This document shows, piece by piece, positions 11,528-29,661 of a stretch of DNA of 64,000 nucleotides. The notes under the pieces were generated by a model, which saw only the letters and a program-made list of their open reading frames with translations, searched no databases and had not been told where the DNA came from. Numbering within the stretch: position 1 is the first letter of the stretch; the number at the start of each line of letters is the position of its first letter. The position numbers and the translations under genes were made by a program. The stretch is from Acetobacterium woodii DSM 1030 (GTDB lineage: Bacteria > Bacillota > Clostridia > Eubacteriales > Eubacteriaceae), in contig NC_016894.1 in the NCBI RefSeq assembly GCF_000247605.1, positions 3,771,732 to 3,835,731 on the forward strand, in the 5' to 3' direction.

Positions 11528-13135
11528 ATGCAAAAAACTAAATTAACCTGTAAGAATTATACCGAATTAAATGGATTTTATCAACTAAAATTACCATTGG
11601 AATTCGAAATGTTAATACCGTCAGATGATTCAGTGAGACTGCACAGCCACCTGTTGGAGGGATTGGATTATACAAAGTTATATCAGGCATACTCCTCAAA
11701 AGGGAGAAAACCGGCAGTTGAACCTAAAATCATGTTTAAAATCATTACATACGCCTACATGAATAATCTCTATACGTCACATAAAATCGAAAGAGCCTGT
11801 AAACGGGATATCAACTTTATGTGGCTGTTGGGTGGGCAGAAACCGCCGGATCACGCGACCATCGCCCGATTCCGACAAAAATACCTGTCTGAATCGATGG
11901 AAGACTTGTTTTATCAGATGGTCAAACAACTGAATCGATTAGGTGAAATCCCATTGGAAAATATCTTTATCGATGGGACAAAAATTCAGGCCAATGCCAA
12001 CCGCTATACCTTTGTCTGGAAAAAGACGGTAAGCCGAAATGAAGCCAAAATGCAGGAAAAAGTGAAACAACTGATTGACGAAATGAATCAGCACTGTTTT
12101 TTCGGCTATACGGTCTCCACCGAAACGCTGGTTGATGATCTGGAAAGGATTCTTGCTGATCTCCTCAGACAGAAGGACGCCCAGGGGATCACCTTTGTTC
12201 ATGGGATCGGCAAACGAAAAACGCAACTGCAGAAATGGATTGAGAAATTGACCGACTATAAAACCAGGCAACAGAACTACCAGATCAGCCATGAACTTTT
12301 TGAAACCCGCAACAGCTATTCTAAAACCGATCCCGATGCGACCTTTATGCGGATGAAAGAAGATCATATGCGTAATGGTCAGCTCAAACCCGCCTACAAC
12401 GTACAAATCGGGGTGGAGAGTGAATACATTACCGCCGTGGGTGTTTTTCAGGATCGCAATGATCTCACAACACTAATTCCCATGCTCGAAAAACTGGAGA
12501 AAAATATCGGTTGCCGCTATACCAATGTAATTGCCGACTCCGGTTATGAAAGCGAAGAGAACTACGGCTATCTCACGGATAACAAGTATATTCCCTTTAT
12601 TAAACCTCAGACTTATGAGAAATGGAAGAAGAAAACGTTCAAAAAGGATATCAGTAAACGGGAAAACATGATTTACCATGCTGAAACCGACGAATATACC
12701 TGCCACAATAACAAACAACTCCGACCAATCGGTATCACACACCGGACATCGGTGACCGGCTATCGATCAGATGTAACCATTTACGAATGCGAAAATTGTG
12801 AAGCCTGTCCGGTTAAAGCAAAATGTACCCGTGCAAAAGGAAATCGCCGCCTGCAGGTATCCAAAAACTTCATCGAAAAAAGACAGGTTTCCTATGGGAA
12901 TATCATAACCGAAACGGGAAAACACCTTCGTATGAATCGGTCCATTCAGGTGGAAGGCGCCTTTGGCGTGTTGAAAAACGACTATGCTTTCTCCCGTTTT
13001 TTAACACGGGGCAAAAATCAGGTGAAAACTGAATTTTTCCTGCTCTGCTTTGGTTACAATATCAACAAATTTCATGCGAAAATTCAAACGCAACGATGCG
13101 GTCACCATCTCCATTCCCTTAAAACAACAGCTTGA
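11528..13135 (+). CDS. IS1182-family DDE transposase
   Basis: The 535-residue protein has an N-terminal DUF772-type helical domain (DYTKLYQAYSSKGRKPAVEP, DINFMWLLGGQKPPDHATIA) and a DDE nuclease core. The acidic residues are probably D in IFIDGTKIQANANRYTF (about 145), D in VIADSGYESEENYGYL (about 338) and E in QVEGAFGVLKNDYAFSRF (about 478). A Cys cluster (CENCEACPVKAKC) lies before the last motif, as usual in the family. The frame is intact, so the element is probably still active. No ribosome site precedes the ATG. Confidence 0.92.
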   Translation: MQKTKLTCKNYTELNGFYQLKLPLEFEMLIPSDDSVRLHSHLLEGLDYTKLYQAYSSKGRKPAVEPKIMFKIITYAYMNNLYTSHKIERACKRDINFMWLLGGQKPPDHATIARFRQKYLSESMEDLFYQMVKQLNRLGEIPLENIFIDGTKIQANANRYTFVWKKTVSRNEAKMQEKVKQLIDEMNQHCFFGYTVSTETLVDDLERILADLLRQKDAQGITFVHGIGKRKTQLQKWIEKLTDYKTRQQNYQISHELFETRNSYSKTDPDATFMRMKEDHMRNGQLKPAYNVQIGVESEYITAVGVFQDRNDLTTLIPMLEKLEKNIGCRYTNVIADSGYESEENYGYLTDNKYIPFIKPQTYEKWKKKTFKKDISKRENMIYHAETDEYTCHNNKQLRPIGITHRTSVTGYRSDVTIYECENCEACPVKAKCTRAKGNRRLQVSKNFIEKRQVSYGNIITETGKHLRMNRSIQVEGAFGVLKNDYAFSRFLTRGKNQVKTEFFLLCFGYNINKFHAKIQTQRCGHHLHSLKTTA

Positions 13136-13306: not shown

Positions 13307-15073
13307 CTAAGCTTCTTGGTCCAGCAAAGCGACAAAATCAGAAATTGGCATCGGTTTGGCATAATAGAATCCTTGCGCCATATCACACCCAATTTTACGC
13401 AAAAATTCCACCTGCGCTTTTGTCTCGACCCCCTCGGCAACGGTTTCTATGGCTAAATCTTTGGCCATTTTAACAATACTCTTAACAATTTTTTTCCCCC
13501 GAATGGTACTGGCTATTTCATTAAAAAACTCACGATCAATTTTCACTACATCGATAAAAATATCCTTTAGCATATTAAATGATGAGTATGCCGAACCAAA
13601 ATCATCAATAGCTAATCTAAATCCAATGTTATGAAGCCTTCTGGTAACATCAAAAGCATGCTCAAGGTTCTCTGAAAAAGTGCTTTCAGTTAACTCTAAT
13701 TCGATAATTTCCGGGCTTATATCATATTTCTCAGTCATTGATTCCAGGGTTGAAACATACGCTGGATTATTCAAATGAAGTCTTGACATATTAACAGAGA
13801 TAATCAACGGTTTTCGACCTTCATCTTCCCACTCTTTCTGCTTTTTGCATATTTCTTCAAAAACATACAGATCAATTTTAGTCACAAAACCATTTTTTTC
13901 AAAAAGAGGAATAAATACATTTGGTTCGATGATACCTTTCCGGGGATGCTGCCACCGGATTAAGGCTTCGGCACCAACAATTTTTTCAGTCTTGAAATCA
14001 AATTTAGGTTGCAAAAAAATTTTAAATTCTTTATTTTTAAGAGCTTCGTGCATTTCATTTTCAATTTCATTGTCATTAACGATTCGACTGCGAATATCAT
14101 CATTGTAGAAAAAACAGGCACTTTCATATCTTCCTTTGATCATCTTCGCTGCAAGACTTGCTCGGTCACTGATCGTGTCAATGCTAATCGTTCGATCCTT
14201 TACGACATATATGCCGCTACTGACAACCATATTAAATGATGAATTATGATCAAATTTAAAAACAAGAATGTCTTTAGTTATTTTCTTCATACGGCTTTCC
14301 AGTTCGTTTTCAGACAAATAGTCAAGTAGCAGATAAAATTTATCACCAACGATACGCCCAAAAACCTCATGCTCTTTGATATGCTGAAATAACGTATTGG
14401 CAATATGTTTTAAAAGACAGTCGCCTCCCTCATAACTGAAAATATCATTGATTAATTTAAAATTGTCGATATCAAGGACTATAAAGGCATAGCTACAATT
14501 TTTTTCCTTTATCAGCTTTACTGCTTTTTCTTTAAAAGTCCGTTTGTTAGTGCTCCTGGTTAACTCATCAATATATATCGACTCATTAACTTTCTTTAAG
14601 GCGAGTTCCTCTTCTTTTCTAGCCGTTATATCGAAAACAATGCCTGATAACAGTTCAGGATTTCCCTCATTATCTCTTTGGGTAATCGATCCGCGATCAT
14701 AAAACCATTTCCAACTTTTATCTTTTGCTTGGATCCGGTATTCGATTTCATAAACGCTTGCTTTTCCCTGTAAATGTAGGGTCATTGCCTGCATTGTCTT
14801 CTCATAGTCATCTGGATGTAACTTTTCCGTAAAAAAATGGTGGGTTAATTTCTTTGGTATCTCATCCATTGTATACCCCAAAGTTGTTATCTTTAAATGA
14901 TTACAGGTTACCGTATTCGTTTTTCGATTCCAATACCAATTTCCTAAATTTCCAAACCATGCAAAATCCAACCGTGTTTCTTGTTCTTTTTCCTTGAGCA
15001 TTTGCTTATTAAGCACTTCAAGCTCAGTAATTCGTTCAATTAATTGATCAAAATCATATTTTGAATAGTCCAT
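13307..15073 (-). CDS. PAS-GGDEF-EAL protein, probable c-di-GMP phosphodiesterase
   Basis: The protein has 588 residues: short coiled coil (5-35), PAS/PAC domain (about 45-150, ending SGIVFDITARKEEE), GGDEF domain (about 165-325) and EAL domain (about 340-585). The GGDEF signature is degenerate (GRIVGDKFYLL), so cyclase activity is unlikely. The EAL domain keeps its catalytic set: EALIRW, SVNMSR, ELTES, AIDDFGSAYSS, VKID, EGVE and QGFYYAKP. It should hydrolyse c-di-GMP in response to a PAS ligand. It has no TM segment, so it is cytoplasmic. The IS1182-type element abuts its 3' end without altering the frame as far as can be seen. Confidence 0.9.
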   Translation of the reverse strand: MDYSKYDFDQLIERITELEVLNKQMLKEKEQETRLDFAWFGNLGNWYWNRKTNTVTCNHLKITTLGYTMDEIPKKLTHHFFTEKLHPDDYEKTMQAMTLHLQGKASVYEIEYRIQAKDKSWKWFYDRGSITQRDNEGNPELLSGIVFDITARKEEELALKKVNESIYIDELTRSTNKRTFKEKAVKLIKEKNCSYAFIVLDIDNFKLINDIFSYEGGDCLLKHIANTLFQHIKEHEVFGRIVGDKFYLLLDYLSENELESRMKKITKDILVFKFDHNSSFNMVVSSGIYVVKDRTISIDTISDRASLAAKMIKGRYESACFFYNDDIRSRIVNDNEIENEMHEALKNKEFKIFLQPKFDFKTEKIVGAEALIRWQHPRKGIIEPNVFIPLFEKNGFVTKIDLYVFEEICKKQKEWEDEGRKPLIISVNMSRLHLNNPAYVSTLESMTEKYDISPEIIELELTESTFSENLEHAFDVTRRLHNIGFRLAIDDFGSAYSSFNMLKDIFIDVVKIDREFFNEIASTIRGKKIVKSIVKMAKDLAIETVAEGVETKAQVEFLRKIGCDMAQGFYYAKPMPISDFVALLDQEA

Positions 15074-26589: not shown

Positions 26590-26730
26590 CCGTACCAACA
26601 ATTGTTAATCAGTTGTTTGCATCAGAACGGATCTGGCCTTAGCCTGTCCGATTCTGTAGTAAACAACCGATCTAATCATTTTTGGTACGGTTTTTATTTG
26701 TTTTTATTTGTTTTTATTCGTTTTTACTTG
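26590..26730 (+). terminator. Long structured hairpin with T-rich 10-bp tandem repeats
   Basis: CCGTACCA (26590-26597) pairs with TGGTACGG (26683-26690), enclosing further stems (TTGTTT/AAACAA; CAGAACGGA with TCCGATTCTG). Four tandem copies of a 10-mer (TTTTTATTTG, with small changes) follow at 26691-26730. It resembles an oversized terminator or small structured RNA between the chemoreceptor and the next operon. Confidence 0.45.
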
Positions 26731-26732
26731 TC

Positions 26733-26761
26733 TTGACGTGAATGGTATAATAAAATAAAAT
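26733..26761 (+). promoter_or_regulatory. Sigma-A promoter of the binding-protein/GTPase/ATPase operon
   Basis: TTGACG (26733-26738), 17-base spacer, TAAAAT (26756-26761), with another TATAAT at 26746-26751 inside the spacer. The start codon is 50 bases downstream. Confidence 0.6.
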
Positions 26762-26811
26762 TCAACAATTATAAACTGATGGATCAAATTAACTTTTAAA
26801 GGAGTAGCTCG

Positions 26812-27777
26812 ATGAATTATTTTGAAAACAATGTGATGGCGCTGATGCCTTGCGCAGTCAAAGTGCCAATGGAAGCTAAAATTGCTGGTTTTATTAAAGA
26901 TAAACAGCTTTCCCTAAAATATGAGATCTTATCTAATGCGGTTGTTCAGGATAATATCTTTGAAGATATTAAAACCATAACCGACCTTGAGGCCCTTCCG
27001 GATGTTATGGTTGCGCCGGGATTCAGCCGTTTTTTCTTCCCCTCCTTTGTTGAACGATTCACCAAAAAAGGAGCTTTTCAATCCTCCCTTGACTTTGCGG
27101 TATCGGATGCCTATAAAGATTCCGGGGTGATTGACCCTAATGCCTACTATGATATTATTGCTGTTAATCCACTTATTTTTTTAGTTGATCAAACCAACTA
27201 TCCCGATCTTGCACCACCTCAAACATGGGCTGATCTTTTGTCTCCGCAATATGAACAAAAGATTGCCTTTAGAGGTCATACCGCCGAAGTTTTGTGTGAA
27301 GGGGTATTATTCGAAATTTATCGTTCCCATGGTCTTGAAGGCATCAAAAAACTGGCCCGAAATATTAAATCCCGACTCCATCCCGCTCAGATGGTCGCCC
27401 TGGCTGGCAGCAAAAAAAAGGAAGCACCCTTTATCAGTGTAATCCCCTTATCCTTTGCCAATCTGGTCAAAGAAAACGATCAGATCCGAGTAATCTGGCC
27501 TGAAGATGGTGCGGTCATGAATCCGGTCGTGATGCTGACCAAAAAAGATTGTTGTGAGGATGCCAAACAAGTTTCTAGATACCTTATCAGTACCGCAGTT
27601 GGCGACTTATTCAGTGAAGTTGGCTTTTGCTCATTGCGACCCGAACTTGAAGCAAAAATGCCCCGCTCAGGAAAATACAAATGGATCAGCTGGGACTTTT
27701 TGCTTCAGACCGATGTTGAAAAACTCCATGATGAGCTAAACCAGGTAGTTAATACCTACTCATTGGAAAGGGCGTAA
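26812..27777 (+). CDS. ABC substrate-binding-like protein lacking a signal peptide
   Basis: The 321-residue protein resembles type-2 periplasmic binding proteins of the Fe3+ family: PDVMVAPGFSRFFFP, DIIAVNPLIFLVDQTNYPDL, PQTWADLLSPQYEQKIAFRG and a late KYKWISWDFL. It begins MNYFENNVMALMPCAVKVPM with no signal peptide or lipobox, although AAAGGAG places the start firmly. It should therefore be cytoplasmic. It is first in a tight operon with a GTPase (four bases) and an ABC ATPase. It may hold a metal ion, cofactor or anion inside the cell; this is inference from fold and partners. Confidence 0.75.
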   Translation: MNYFENNVMALMPCAVKVPMEAKIAGFIKDKQLSLKYEILSNAVVQDNIFEDIKTITDLEALPDVMVAPGFSRFFFPSFVERFTKKGAFQSSLDFAVSDAYKDSGVIDPNAYYDIIAVNPLIFLVDQTNYPDLAPPQTWADLLSPQYEQKIAFRGHTAEVLCEGVLFEIYRSHGLEGIKKLARNIKSRLHPAQMVALAGSKKKEAPFISVIPLSFANLVKENDQIRVIWPEDGAVMNPVVMLTKKDCCEDAKQVSRYLISTAVGDLFSEVGFCSLRPELEAKMPRSGKYKWISWDFLLQTDVEKLHDELNQVVNTYSLERA

Positions 27778-27781
27778 TCAA

Positions 27782-28471
27782 ATGCGCCTGATTACCTTTT
27801 CCGGTCCTCCCTCTTCAGGAAAAACTTCAGTTATTATCAACACCATCCGGGCCCTTAAAAATAATGGTGCCCAGGTTGCGGTCGTTAAAATGGATTGTCT
27901 TACTTCCGATGACAAGGAGCTTTATCAGAAAGAAAACATTCCGGTTGGAGTTGGCCTTTCTGGCAATCTTTGCCCGGATCACTTCTTTATTACCAATATT
28001 GATCAATGCTTTGAATGGGCGATTAAAAAAAATGTCGATTATCTGATTACCGAAAGCGCCGGCCTTTGCAATCGCTGTTCGCCACACATATCCGGCGTAA
28101 TGGCGGTCTGTGTCATCGATAATCTGATGGGTGTCAAAACCCCCAAGAAAATTGGTCCGATGCTTAAAATGGCCGATATTGTGATTATCACCAAAGGCGA
28201 CATCGTCTCGCAGGCAGAACGCGAAGTTTTTGCTTTTAAGGTCAGACAAGCCAACACAAAATGTTTAATTCTTAATGTGAACGGGATCACCGGTCAAGGC
28301 TGCACCGAATTTGCCGCGATCCTAACAGAAGCCCAGGAACATGAATTTGTCACTGGTGAAAAGCTGCGGTTTGCCATGCCCGCCGCCGTTTGCTCCTATT
28401 GTCTGGGTGAAAAAAGAATCGGCACGGAATATCAATTAGGCAACGTGAGAAAGGTAGAATTTCATGATTAA
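27782..28471 (+). CDS. HypB/UreG-like SIMIBI GTPase with CxxC motifs
   Basis: This 229-residue P-loop NTPase has G1 GPPSSGKTS at 8-16, a KMDC segment at about 37-40, ITESAGLCNRCSPH at about 87-100 in the place of the HypB/UreG ENVG or ESGG motif, and TKGD at about 139-142 as the G4-type base-recognition motif. A second Cys pair, CSYC, lies near 204-207. The paired CxxC motifs suggest a metal site at a dimer interface. Relatives deliver Ni or other metals to enzymes. The target is unknown; no hydrogenase or urease gene is in the window. The next gene overlaps it by eight bases. Confidence 0.75.
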   Translation: MRLITFSGPPSSGKTSVIINTIRALKNNGAQVAVVKMDCLTSDDKELYQKENIPVGVGLSGNLCPDHFFITNIDQCFEWAIKKNVDYLITESAGLCNRCSPHISGVMAVCVIDNLMGVKTPKKIGPMLKMADIVIITKGDIVSQAEREVFAFKVRQANTKCLILNVNGITGQGCTEFAAILTEAQEHEFVTGEKLRFAMPAAVCSYCLGEKRIGTEYQLGNVRKVEFHD

Positions 28472-29468
28472 CACCATTTCCAACAAAACGATTGACCTCA
28501 TTTTTAAAACCTATCCTTATTGCCATGATTTTTTTGAATCAATGGTTGTTGATTATCCGCCCAAAGACAAATATCATCTGACCATCAAAGAATATTTTGA
28601 CAGCCTCGATAGCTATGAACTCCAACTCAAAGGCATTGAACAGGAAAGTCTAATTGAACAGTTTATCTCCTTTTTAGAGAATATGAAAGAACGTCAAAAA
28701 AACGTCCAATGGAATATCAAGTCGCTGACTATCATCGGTGGTCAAAATAAGTTTGGCGAACCGGAAAATATCAGCCTTTATCTTAAACCCGGTGATGTGG
28801 TCTCAATTGTTGGCCCCACCGGTTCTGGAAAAAGCCGATTGCTGGGCGATATTGAATGGCTGGCCCAGGGAGATACCCCGACCAGACGCAAGATATTGGT
28901 CAATGACACCGTTCCGCCGCAGTCGTGGCGATTTTCAATTGAACACAAACTGGTTGCCCAACTTTCGCAAAACATGAATTTCGTAATGGATCTGACGGTC
29001 GCCGACTTTATCAAAATGCATGGTGAAAGCCGCATGATCAGTGATGTTGAAAATAAAATACAAGTGATTTTGGAAAAAGCCAATGAACTGGCGGGTGAAA
29101 AAATATCCCTGGACACTCCGGTAACCGCCCTCTCTGGCGGGCAATCCCGGGCTCTGATGATTGCCGATACCGCTTTTTTAAGCTCTTCGCCAATTGTCCT
29201 AATTGATGAAATCGAAAATGCCGGAATTGATCGAAAAATCGCCATCTCTTTGTTGGTCAAAAATGAAAAAATTGTTTTAATTGCGACCCACGATCCGGTG
29301 CTGGCGCTCAGTGCCGAAAGGCGCATCGTCATCAAAAATGGCGGTATTGACAAAATAATTATCACCTCGCCAAAAGAAAAAGAACAACTCCACGAACTTG
29401 AAGCATTAAATCAGAAGTTAATGTATTATCGGGAACTCTTAAGGACGGGAGCAAGCATTGAGGATTAA
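28464..29468 (+). CDS. Stand-alone ABC ATPase with N-terminal DUF1858-like helical domain
   Basis: The 334-residue protein has two parts. Residues about 1-75 (TIDLIFKTYPYCHDFFESM) resemble a DUF1858/ScdA-type helical domain. Residues about 90-310 are an ABC ATPase with Walker A GPTGSGKS, signature ALSGGQSRAL, Walker B SPIVLIDEIENAG and switch histidine ATHDPVL. The usual Walker B DEP is replaced by DEI. No permease is encoded nearby, so it is not an ordinary importer subunit; non-transport roles such as remodelling or metallocentre loading are possible. GAAAGG precedes the ATG, which overlaps the GTPase gene. Confidence 0.75.
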   Translation: MINTISNKTIDLIFKTYPYCHDFFESMVVDYPPKDKYHLTIKEYFDSLDSYELQLKGIEQESLIEQFISFLENMKERQKNVQWNIKSLTIIGGQNKFGEPENISLYLKPGDVVSIVGPTGSGKSRLLGDIEWLAQGDTPTRRKILVNDTVPPQSWRFSIEHKLVAQLSQNMNFVMDLTVADFIKMHGESRMISDVENKIQVILEKANELAGEKISLDTPVTALSGGQSRALMIADTAFLSSSPIVLIDEIENAGIDRKIAISLLVKNEKIVLIATHDPVLALSAERRIVIKNGGIDKIIITSPKEKEQLHELEALNQKLMYYRELLRTGASIED

Positions 29469-29497
29469 AGGCATCCTATGATCCCCCGCCTTTTTTT
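29467..29497 (+). terminator. Intrinsic terminator of the GTPase/ABC operon
   Basis: AAAGGC (29467-29472) pairs with GCCTTT (29488-29493), followed by seven T residues. It overlaps the stop codon. Confidence 0.55.
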
Positions 29498-29661
29498 GTT
29501 GCCCGCGGACTTTTATTTTACGACCTTGATCATGCCCCCTGCTTTATCTTTAATCCGTCCCCTAAAAGACAGGCTAAAAGATGTTTTTAAAATCGTTTCT
29601 TAGCTTGTTTTTTAAATCGCCAAAATAGCAATCTCAGAATCTGGTTCGACCTTCTTTTTGA

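Follow-up and report, generated by a model that had tools for sequence, protein, structure and literature searches.

Several described systems share parts with the locus reported here. GTPases of the UreG/HypB type (PF02492) deliver nickel, carry a CPH motif and work with UreE/F/H or HypA as partners. Ferric-binding substrate-binding proteins (FbpA/FutA/AfuA, PF13343) have paired tyrosine iron ligands as their hallmark, and the metal-chelate importers of the FecCD/BtuFCD type include HI1472, which we take to be MolA. How a metal such as Mo, W or Fe passes from its importer to the right enzyme in anaerobes is, to our knowledge, poorly known. Within the genus, a HypB-type GTPase occurs outside a hydrogenase context in the isr operon of Acetobacterium wieringae; the available part of the source gives an oxidoreductase, two HypA, HypB and a ferredoxin for this operon, a gene set in which a substrate-binding protein (SBP) and an ABC ATPase are absent (PMC10134865). 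The listings from our literature search showed no paper naming the combination of genes described below, and the available excerpts of PMC11980592, PMC2408646 and PMC10134865 do not describe it.

We analysed a 64,000-nt stretch (the window) of the Acetobacterium woodii DSM 1030 genome, taken from one single contig of 4,044,777 bases. On the forward strand at 26812..29468, three intact open reading frames encode in order a 321-aa binding protein (26812..27777), a 229-aa GTPase (27782..28471) and a 334-aa soluble ABC ATPase (28464..29468). The open reading frames and the fold classes of their products bore out the initial annotation of a three-gene operon with a 4-base gap followed by an 8-base overlap. 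Three overlapping sigma-70-like matches (9-10/12) at 26723..26761 (+) are candidate promoters, in a region with a total of 10 such sites versus 7.2 expected, and a terminator-like hairpin of 6 pairs with a 15-base loop, followed by a T run, lies at 29467..29498 (+; z -1.67). A transposase-like ORF was noted by eye elsewhere in the window (11528-13135, +).

The GTPase has a UreG/HypB-type fold and belongs to the G3E family by its PF02492 match (48.4 bits, cut-off 20.7), but it scores far under the HypB/UreG equivalog cut-offs (49.3 of 121.2 bits for TIGR00073 and 35.7 of 204.2 bits for TIGR00101). It has CPDH in place of CPH, it carries two CxxC pairs, and an SBP and an ABC ATPase accompany it. 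Residues C64-P65-D66-H67, C96, C99, C110, C204 and C207 were invariant in 47/47 sequences, and they include both of the CxxC pairs noticed at the outset (C96/C99 and C204/C207).

The SBP has the SBP_bac_6 fold of ferric-binding proteins, with 8-16% identity to them among the rows listed. In contrast to those proteins, and to the exported SBP of a canonical ABC importer, it has no signal peptide, in agreement with the initial annotation; only 2 of 66 family members reached the hydropathy threshold for an export signal, compared with 41 of 46 proteins from three exported families. It also differs from ferric-binding SBPs in having an invariant Cys and an invariant His (C14 and H190, 43/43 sequences). 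These residues directly follow strands 8-12 and 185-189 and, going by the usual position of the SBP pocket, would lie within it. The invariant Cys and His residues of SBP and GTPase together would suit a metal. Relatives of the SBP are often fused to a DUF1858 domain of the Hcp-associated kind (TIGR03980/PF08984; Hcp, hybrid cluster protein), a further difference from ferric-binding SBPs; the domain was present on 28 of 49 scanned SBPs, and the family scan found none on the window SBP. A DUF1858-like N-terminus had been proposed for the ABC protein. The Pfam scan gave no DUF1858 hit there, but profile alignment matched this region (about residues 1-85) with the DUF1858 domain of sister SBPs (hhalign 94%, E 1.4e-7), which makes it a candidate DUF1858-like domain.

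A scan of named genomes gave at least 588 pattern matches, at least 557 of which encode a relative. The best 80 of these at least 557 loci were kept; they include near-duplicates (several Chlorobiaceae, Pelosinus and Halanaerobium) and come from Chlorobi, Desulfuromonadales, Halanaerobium, Pelosinus, other Clostridia, Bacteroidales, Fusobacterium, Spirochaetes, Deferribacteres, Gemmatimonads and two Methanomicrobiales. Measured from the GTPase, an ABC gene was found within 3 kb in 78 of the 80 loci, and in 75 a cytosolic SBP of one or the other type lay no more than 3.5 kb away; in one of the misses (L074) the contig stops beside the GTPase. The neighbourhood comparison suggested in the initial annotation thus found the triad kept. 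The order SBP-GTPase-ABC held for 49 of 74 GTPases in ORF-based clusters. Median identity to the window proteins was 63% for the GTPase (46 comparisons), 54% for the ABC ATPase (41) and 27% for the SBP (42), largely over the same loci. The binding part also varies in kind: in place of the SBP there can be another type of cytosolic SBP, or DUF364. The conserved GTPase and ABC ATPase and the variable SBP point to an engine that stays the same and a binding part that can be exchanged. A sister GTPase family was found in 22 further genomes of 299 (best matches E 1e-54 to 1e-75). Six of its loci were read (L112-L117): three of them combine a short ABC ATPase, the GTPase and a PF04060 Fe-S protein, and L115 has a weak SBP-like gene after the GTPase and ABC genes. 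An acetogen-specific function was rejected because the distribution runs from Chlorobi to methanogens, and the acetogen-metalloenzyme link once considered possible for this operon is accordingly not supported.

Smaller features of the neighbourhoods were also recorded. A small 81-aa HypA-like zinc-ribbon protein adjoins the triad in L055 (11713-11958) and in six more named loci, with a weak Pfam HypA match (E 0.063). Plasmid matches came from three records, two of them UreG and one a Fusobacterium record without annotation at that place. Neighbour labels are the Pfam/NCBIfam assignments of cluster representatives, not of every member, and the FecE/ModC cluster, which mixes ABC ATPases, was left out of the evidence. 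A family scan of mixed neighbours, covering 103 of 135 listed genes (those dropped were mostly short), gave five methyltransferases, four chromate transporters and two DUF364 proteins, counts for which no enrichment is claimed.

In four congeners the triad forms the last three genes of an eight-gene operon, FecCD-FecE-BtuF-247-aa protein-LRR protein-SBP-GTPase-ABC. This arrangement was present in 4/4 congeners with an orthologue of the window triad (L126-L129; L031 was left out of the count because it is the same organism as L129), and their triad proteins are 82-93% identical to those of the window. FecCD, ABC_tran and LRR were labelled by family match, Peripla_BP_2 refers to the BtuF representative, and the 247-aa product was called a surface protein by eye. 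In one congener, two tandem c-di-GMP-I riboswitches lie just downstream of the triad operon (L126:8835-9162, -). The window genome has the five upstream importer genes at C1:544983-550124, 0.55 Mb into the contig and without a triad; they are 83-94% identical to the congener operon genes (BtuF, 86%). DNA similarity between window and congeners (a collinear block of ~81% identity on the + strand) spans 26782..29464 only, and its stop at the triad borders marks the split from the importer genes. Among 19 genomes of the genus, five had a window-type triad, and the importer occurred in exactly these five (Fisher 8.6e-5); 16 of 19 BtuF-family hits in the genus lay within 3.5 kb of a family GTPase. 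The second copy in the window genome (L006) sits behind FecCD-FecE-BtuF; the third (L007) lacks the FecCD-FecE-BtuF genes, which in five congener loci stand ahead of it.

The operon BtuF matches 4pag (3.6e-43) and HI1472 (1.3e-7), and the partner importer is of the same kind as the known FecCD/BtuFCD-type systems. Both in the congener operons and in the window genome, the FecCD permease has its own ATPase and its own SBP. Since nothing is missing from this importer, the triad is probably no component of its transport machinery; it comes on top as an additional set, lacking an export signal, that the known systems do not have. With an ATPase of its own, the importer has no need of a second ABC protein to move its cargo. 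The absence of a permease was rightly noted for the locus, but FecCD is joined to the triad in four congeners and encoded elsewhere in this genome, so the permease-less appearance is a matter of how the genes are arranged in this strain. The link to importers is looser outside the genus. Within 8 kb, the best 80 of the at least 557 loci had BtuF-like genes in 24 cases, FecCD in 15, ModA in 14 and ModB in 13; 37 loci had at least one of these labelled importer genes and 43 had none, some contigs being short. The importer types in operon linkage with the triad were FecCD, ModB, and BPD_transp_1 with an NMT1-like SBP.

The explanation that we favour, at somewhat under an even chance, is a cytosolic relay in which the SBP, GTPase and ABC ATPase may together pick up metal from an importer and pass it to metalloenzymes. 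What was observed is the linkage, the conservation and the operon split; from them we infer a cargo and a direction of transfer, along with a complex and a role for the ABC protein. The importer (FecCD permease, FecE ATPase and BtuF-like lipoprotein) would bring in a metal, a metal oxyanion or a metal chelate, which the cytosolic SBP would bind through the pocket with its invariant Cys and His. The UreG/HypB-like GTPase would then take the metal on its Cys/His motifs and hand it on under control of GTP hydrolysis, and the soluble ABC ATPase might serve as a clamp powered by ATP, either opening the SBP-GTPase complex or docking it to a client. GTPase and ABC ATPase would be the constant engine, with the binding part (SBP, second SBP type, DUF364 or, in the sister family, an Fe-S protein) swapped according to cargo and client. 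The intracellular metal delivery proposed in the initial annotation is thus retained on the strength of the conserved module, the importer linkage and the Cys/His residues, without the acetogen link. Against the relay stand the 43 of 80 loci without a labelled importer and the DUF1858 domain on many SBPs, which it does not explain.

It is possible, though we would sooner doubt it, that this represents an undescribed class of energy-driven metal relay within the cell, an 'inner importer' made of a cytosolic SBP, a metallo-GTPase and a soluble ABC protein. Such a class, if real, would use one conserved engine with exchangeable cargo subunits for Mo/W, iron or cobalt enzymes and would serve anaerobes of both domains. 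A conserved two-NTPase module with a cytosolic SBP, whose range extends from Clostridia and Chlorobi to methanogens, would put names to genes for metal transfer. The case also calls for caution in annotation, as family models label the SBP and the ABC ATPase as 'ABC transporter' parts when the SBP has no export signal.

The module could instead mature or repair Hcp, providing it with iron or a cluster under Crp/Fnr-type control in nitrosative stress, with Mo/W secondary; we think this unlikely. At least 7 of 22 genomes had Hcp no more than 5 kb from a triad GTPase, versus 0.13 expected, by a Poisson estimate that ignores kinship, and the seven genomes represent three families. Among loci that were read, Hcp adjoins the triad in L120 (G188) and follows a Crp gene in L131 (G224); in G238 and G262, Hcp is near the triad by position. 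Within 8 kb, Hcp was found in 6 and Crp in 13 of the best 80 of the at least 557 loci. In congener L144, an Hcp gene (13321-15039) comes after FecCD-FecE-BtuF-GTPase-ABC-DUF364-methyltransferase-NTPase_1. Hcp was present in 21/22 triad genomes versus 192/277 others (p 0.0045), but of the 213 genomes with Hcp, 192 lack a triad-type GTPase. The frequent DUF1858 domain would fit an Hcp module, yet the window SBP is without it and falls outside the 36-row clade of Hcp/Crp-linked SBPs (quick tree, long-branch warnings). This clade also has four Mo-linked rows and one Fec-linked row, and the Crp-linked SBP of L071 falls outside it. In the window genome, the Hcp gene (C1:2090999) is distant from each of the three triad GTPases.

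A module for Mo/W in all lineages, supplying molybdate, tungstate or thiomolybdate for the synthesis of pterin cofactor or FeMo-co, is likewise improbable in our estimate. The ModB genes in 13 of the best 80 loci speak for it, as does the Mo/W riboswitch RF01055, which in G239 and G327 stands at the head of operons with the second SBP type and the GTPase; another in G239 precedes FecE-BtuF-FecCD-SBP-GTPase-ABC. The 138 riboswitch matches in 36 triad genomes (G028 left out) gave seven riboswitch-GTPase pairs within 6.5 kb, in five genomes, versus 0.93 pairs expected; four of these genomes belong to one family, and the riboswitch of G030 lies in front of the next operon. AnfO lies between ModC and the GTPase in L087, and moaA was found in 20/22 triad genomes versus 194/277 others (p 0.025). 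However, the riboswitch-headed operons are in one family (f28), and Cys and His are not known as the usual site for an oxyanion. moaA was not found at E 1e-40 in triad genomes G072 and G275, which means that not every triad can have the Mo/W cofactor as its cargo. A nitrogenase-specific function was rejected: nifB was not significantly enriched (6/22 versus 44/277, p 0.14; over the curated cut-off, 4/22 versus 18/277, p 0.066).

For the relay itself, the cargo of the window's subtype is most likely Mo/W, with Fe next; given a relay, we place Mo/W in the window's copy at about one in two. In a quick tree with long-branch warnings, the window SBP clusters (97) with the SBP of the FecE-BtuF-FecCD-SBP-GTPase-ABC operon in G239 that a riboswitch precedes, and with that of G346, and the G346 stretch has no riboswitch. 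Further observations speak against the relay or against Mo/W as its cargo. No RF01055 was found in the window or in the importer operons of the genus, the L127 and L129 contigs having no riboswitch listed. Hcp neighbours another set of triads. The BtuF-like protein of a Mo/W-riboswitch operon (L118:12584-13639) is most like siderophore-binding proteins, a resemblance that also hints at uptake of a Mo/W chelate.

Less probable again is a sensor or gate, in which the cytosolic SBP would read how much cargo the cytosol contains and the GTPase and ABC protein would shut or open the importer. Operon linkage with three kinds of importer and an SBP as the variable part agree with this, but the invariant metal-type residues of the GTPase resemble those of delivery GTPases, and the 43 of the best 80 loci without a labelled importer count against it as well. 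The operon split in this genome might suggest decayed remnants of an ordinary ABC importer that lost its permease, which is highly improbable given three intact frames with such identity to congeners, an importer with its own ATPase and exported-type SBP, and 64 of 66 family SBPs under the signal-peptide threshold.

A cobamide function of the third own-genome copy was also considered and is not supported, because in L007, L142 and L143 it is the divergent bza-like operon to which the cobalamin riboswitch belongs, and because the same GTPase operon occurs in three congener stretches (L144-L146) where the 19-20 kb read contain no bza-like gene. At C1:1220766-1231025 (L140:766-11025), the window genome has another methyltransferase-BtuF-FecCD-FecE set, with NifX-like, DUF134, MinD-like and FmdE-like genes identified by eye as its neighbours.
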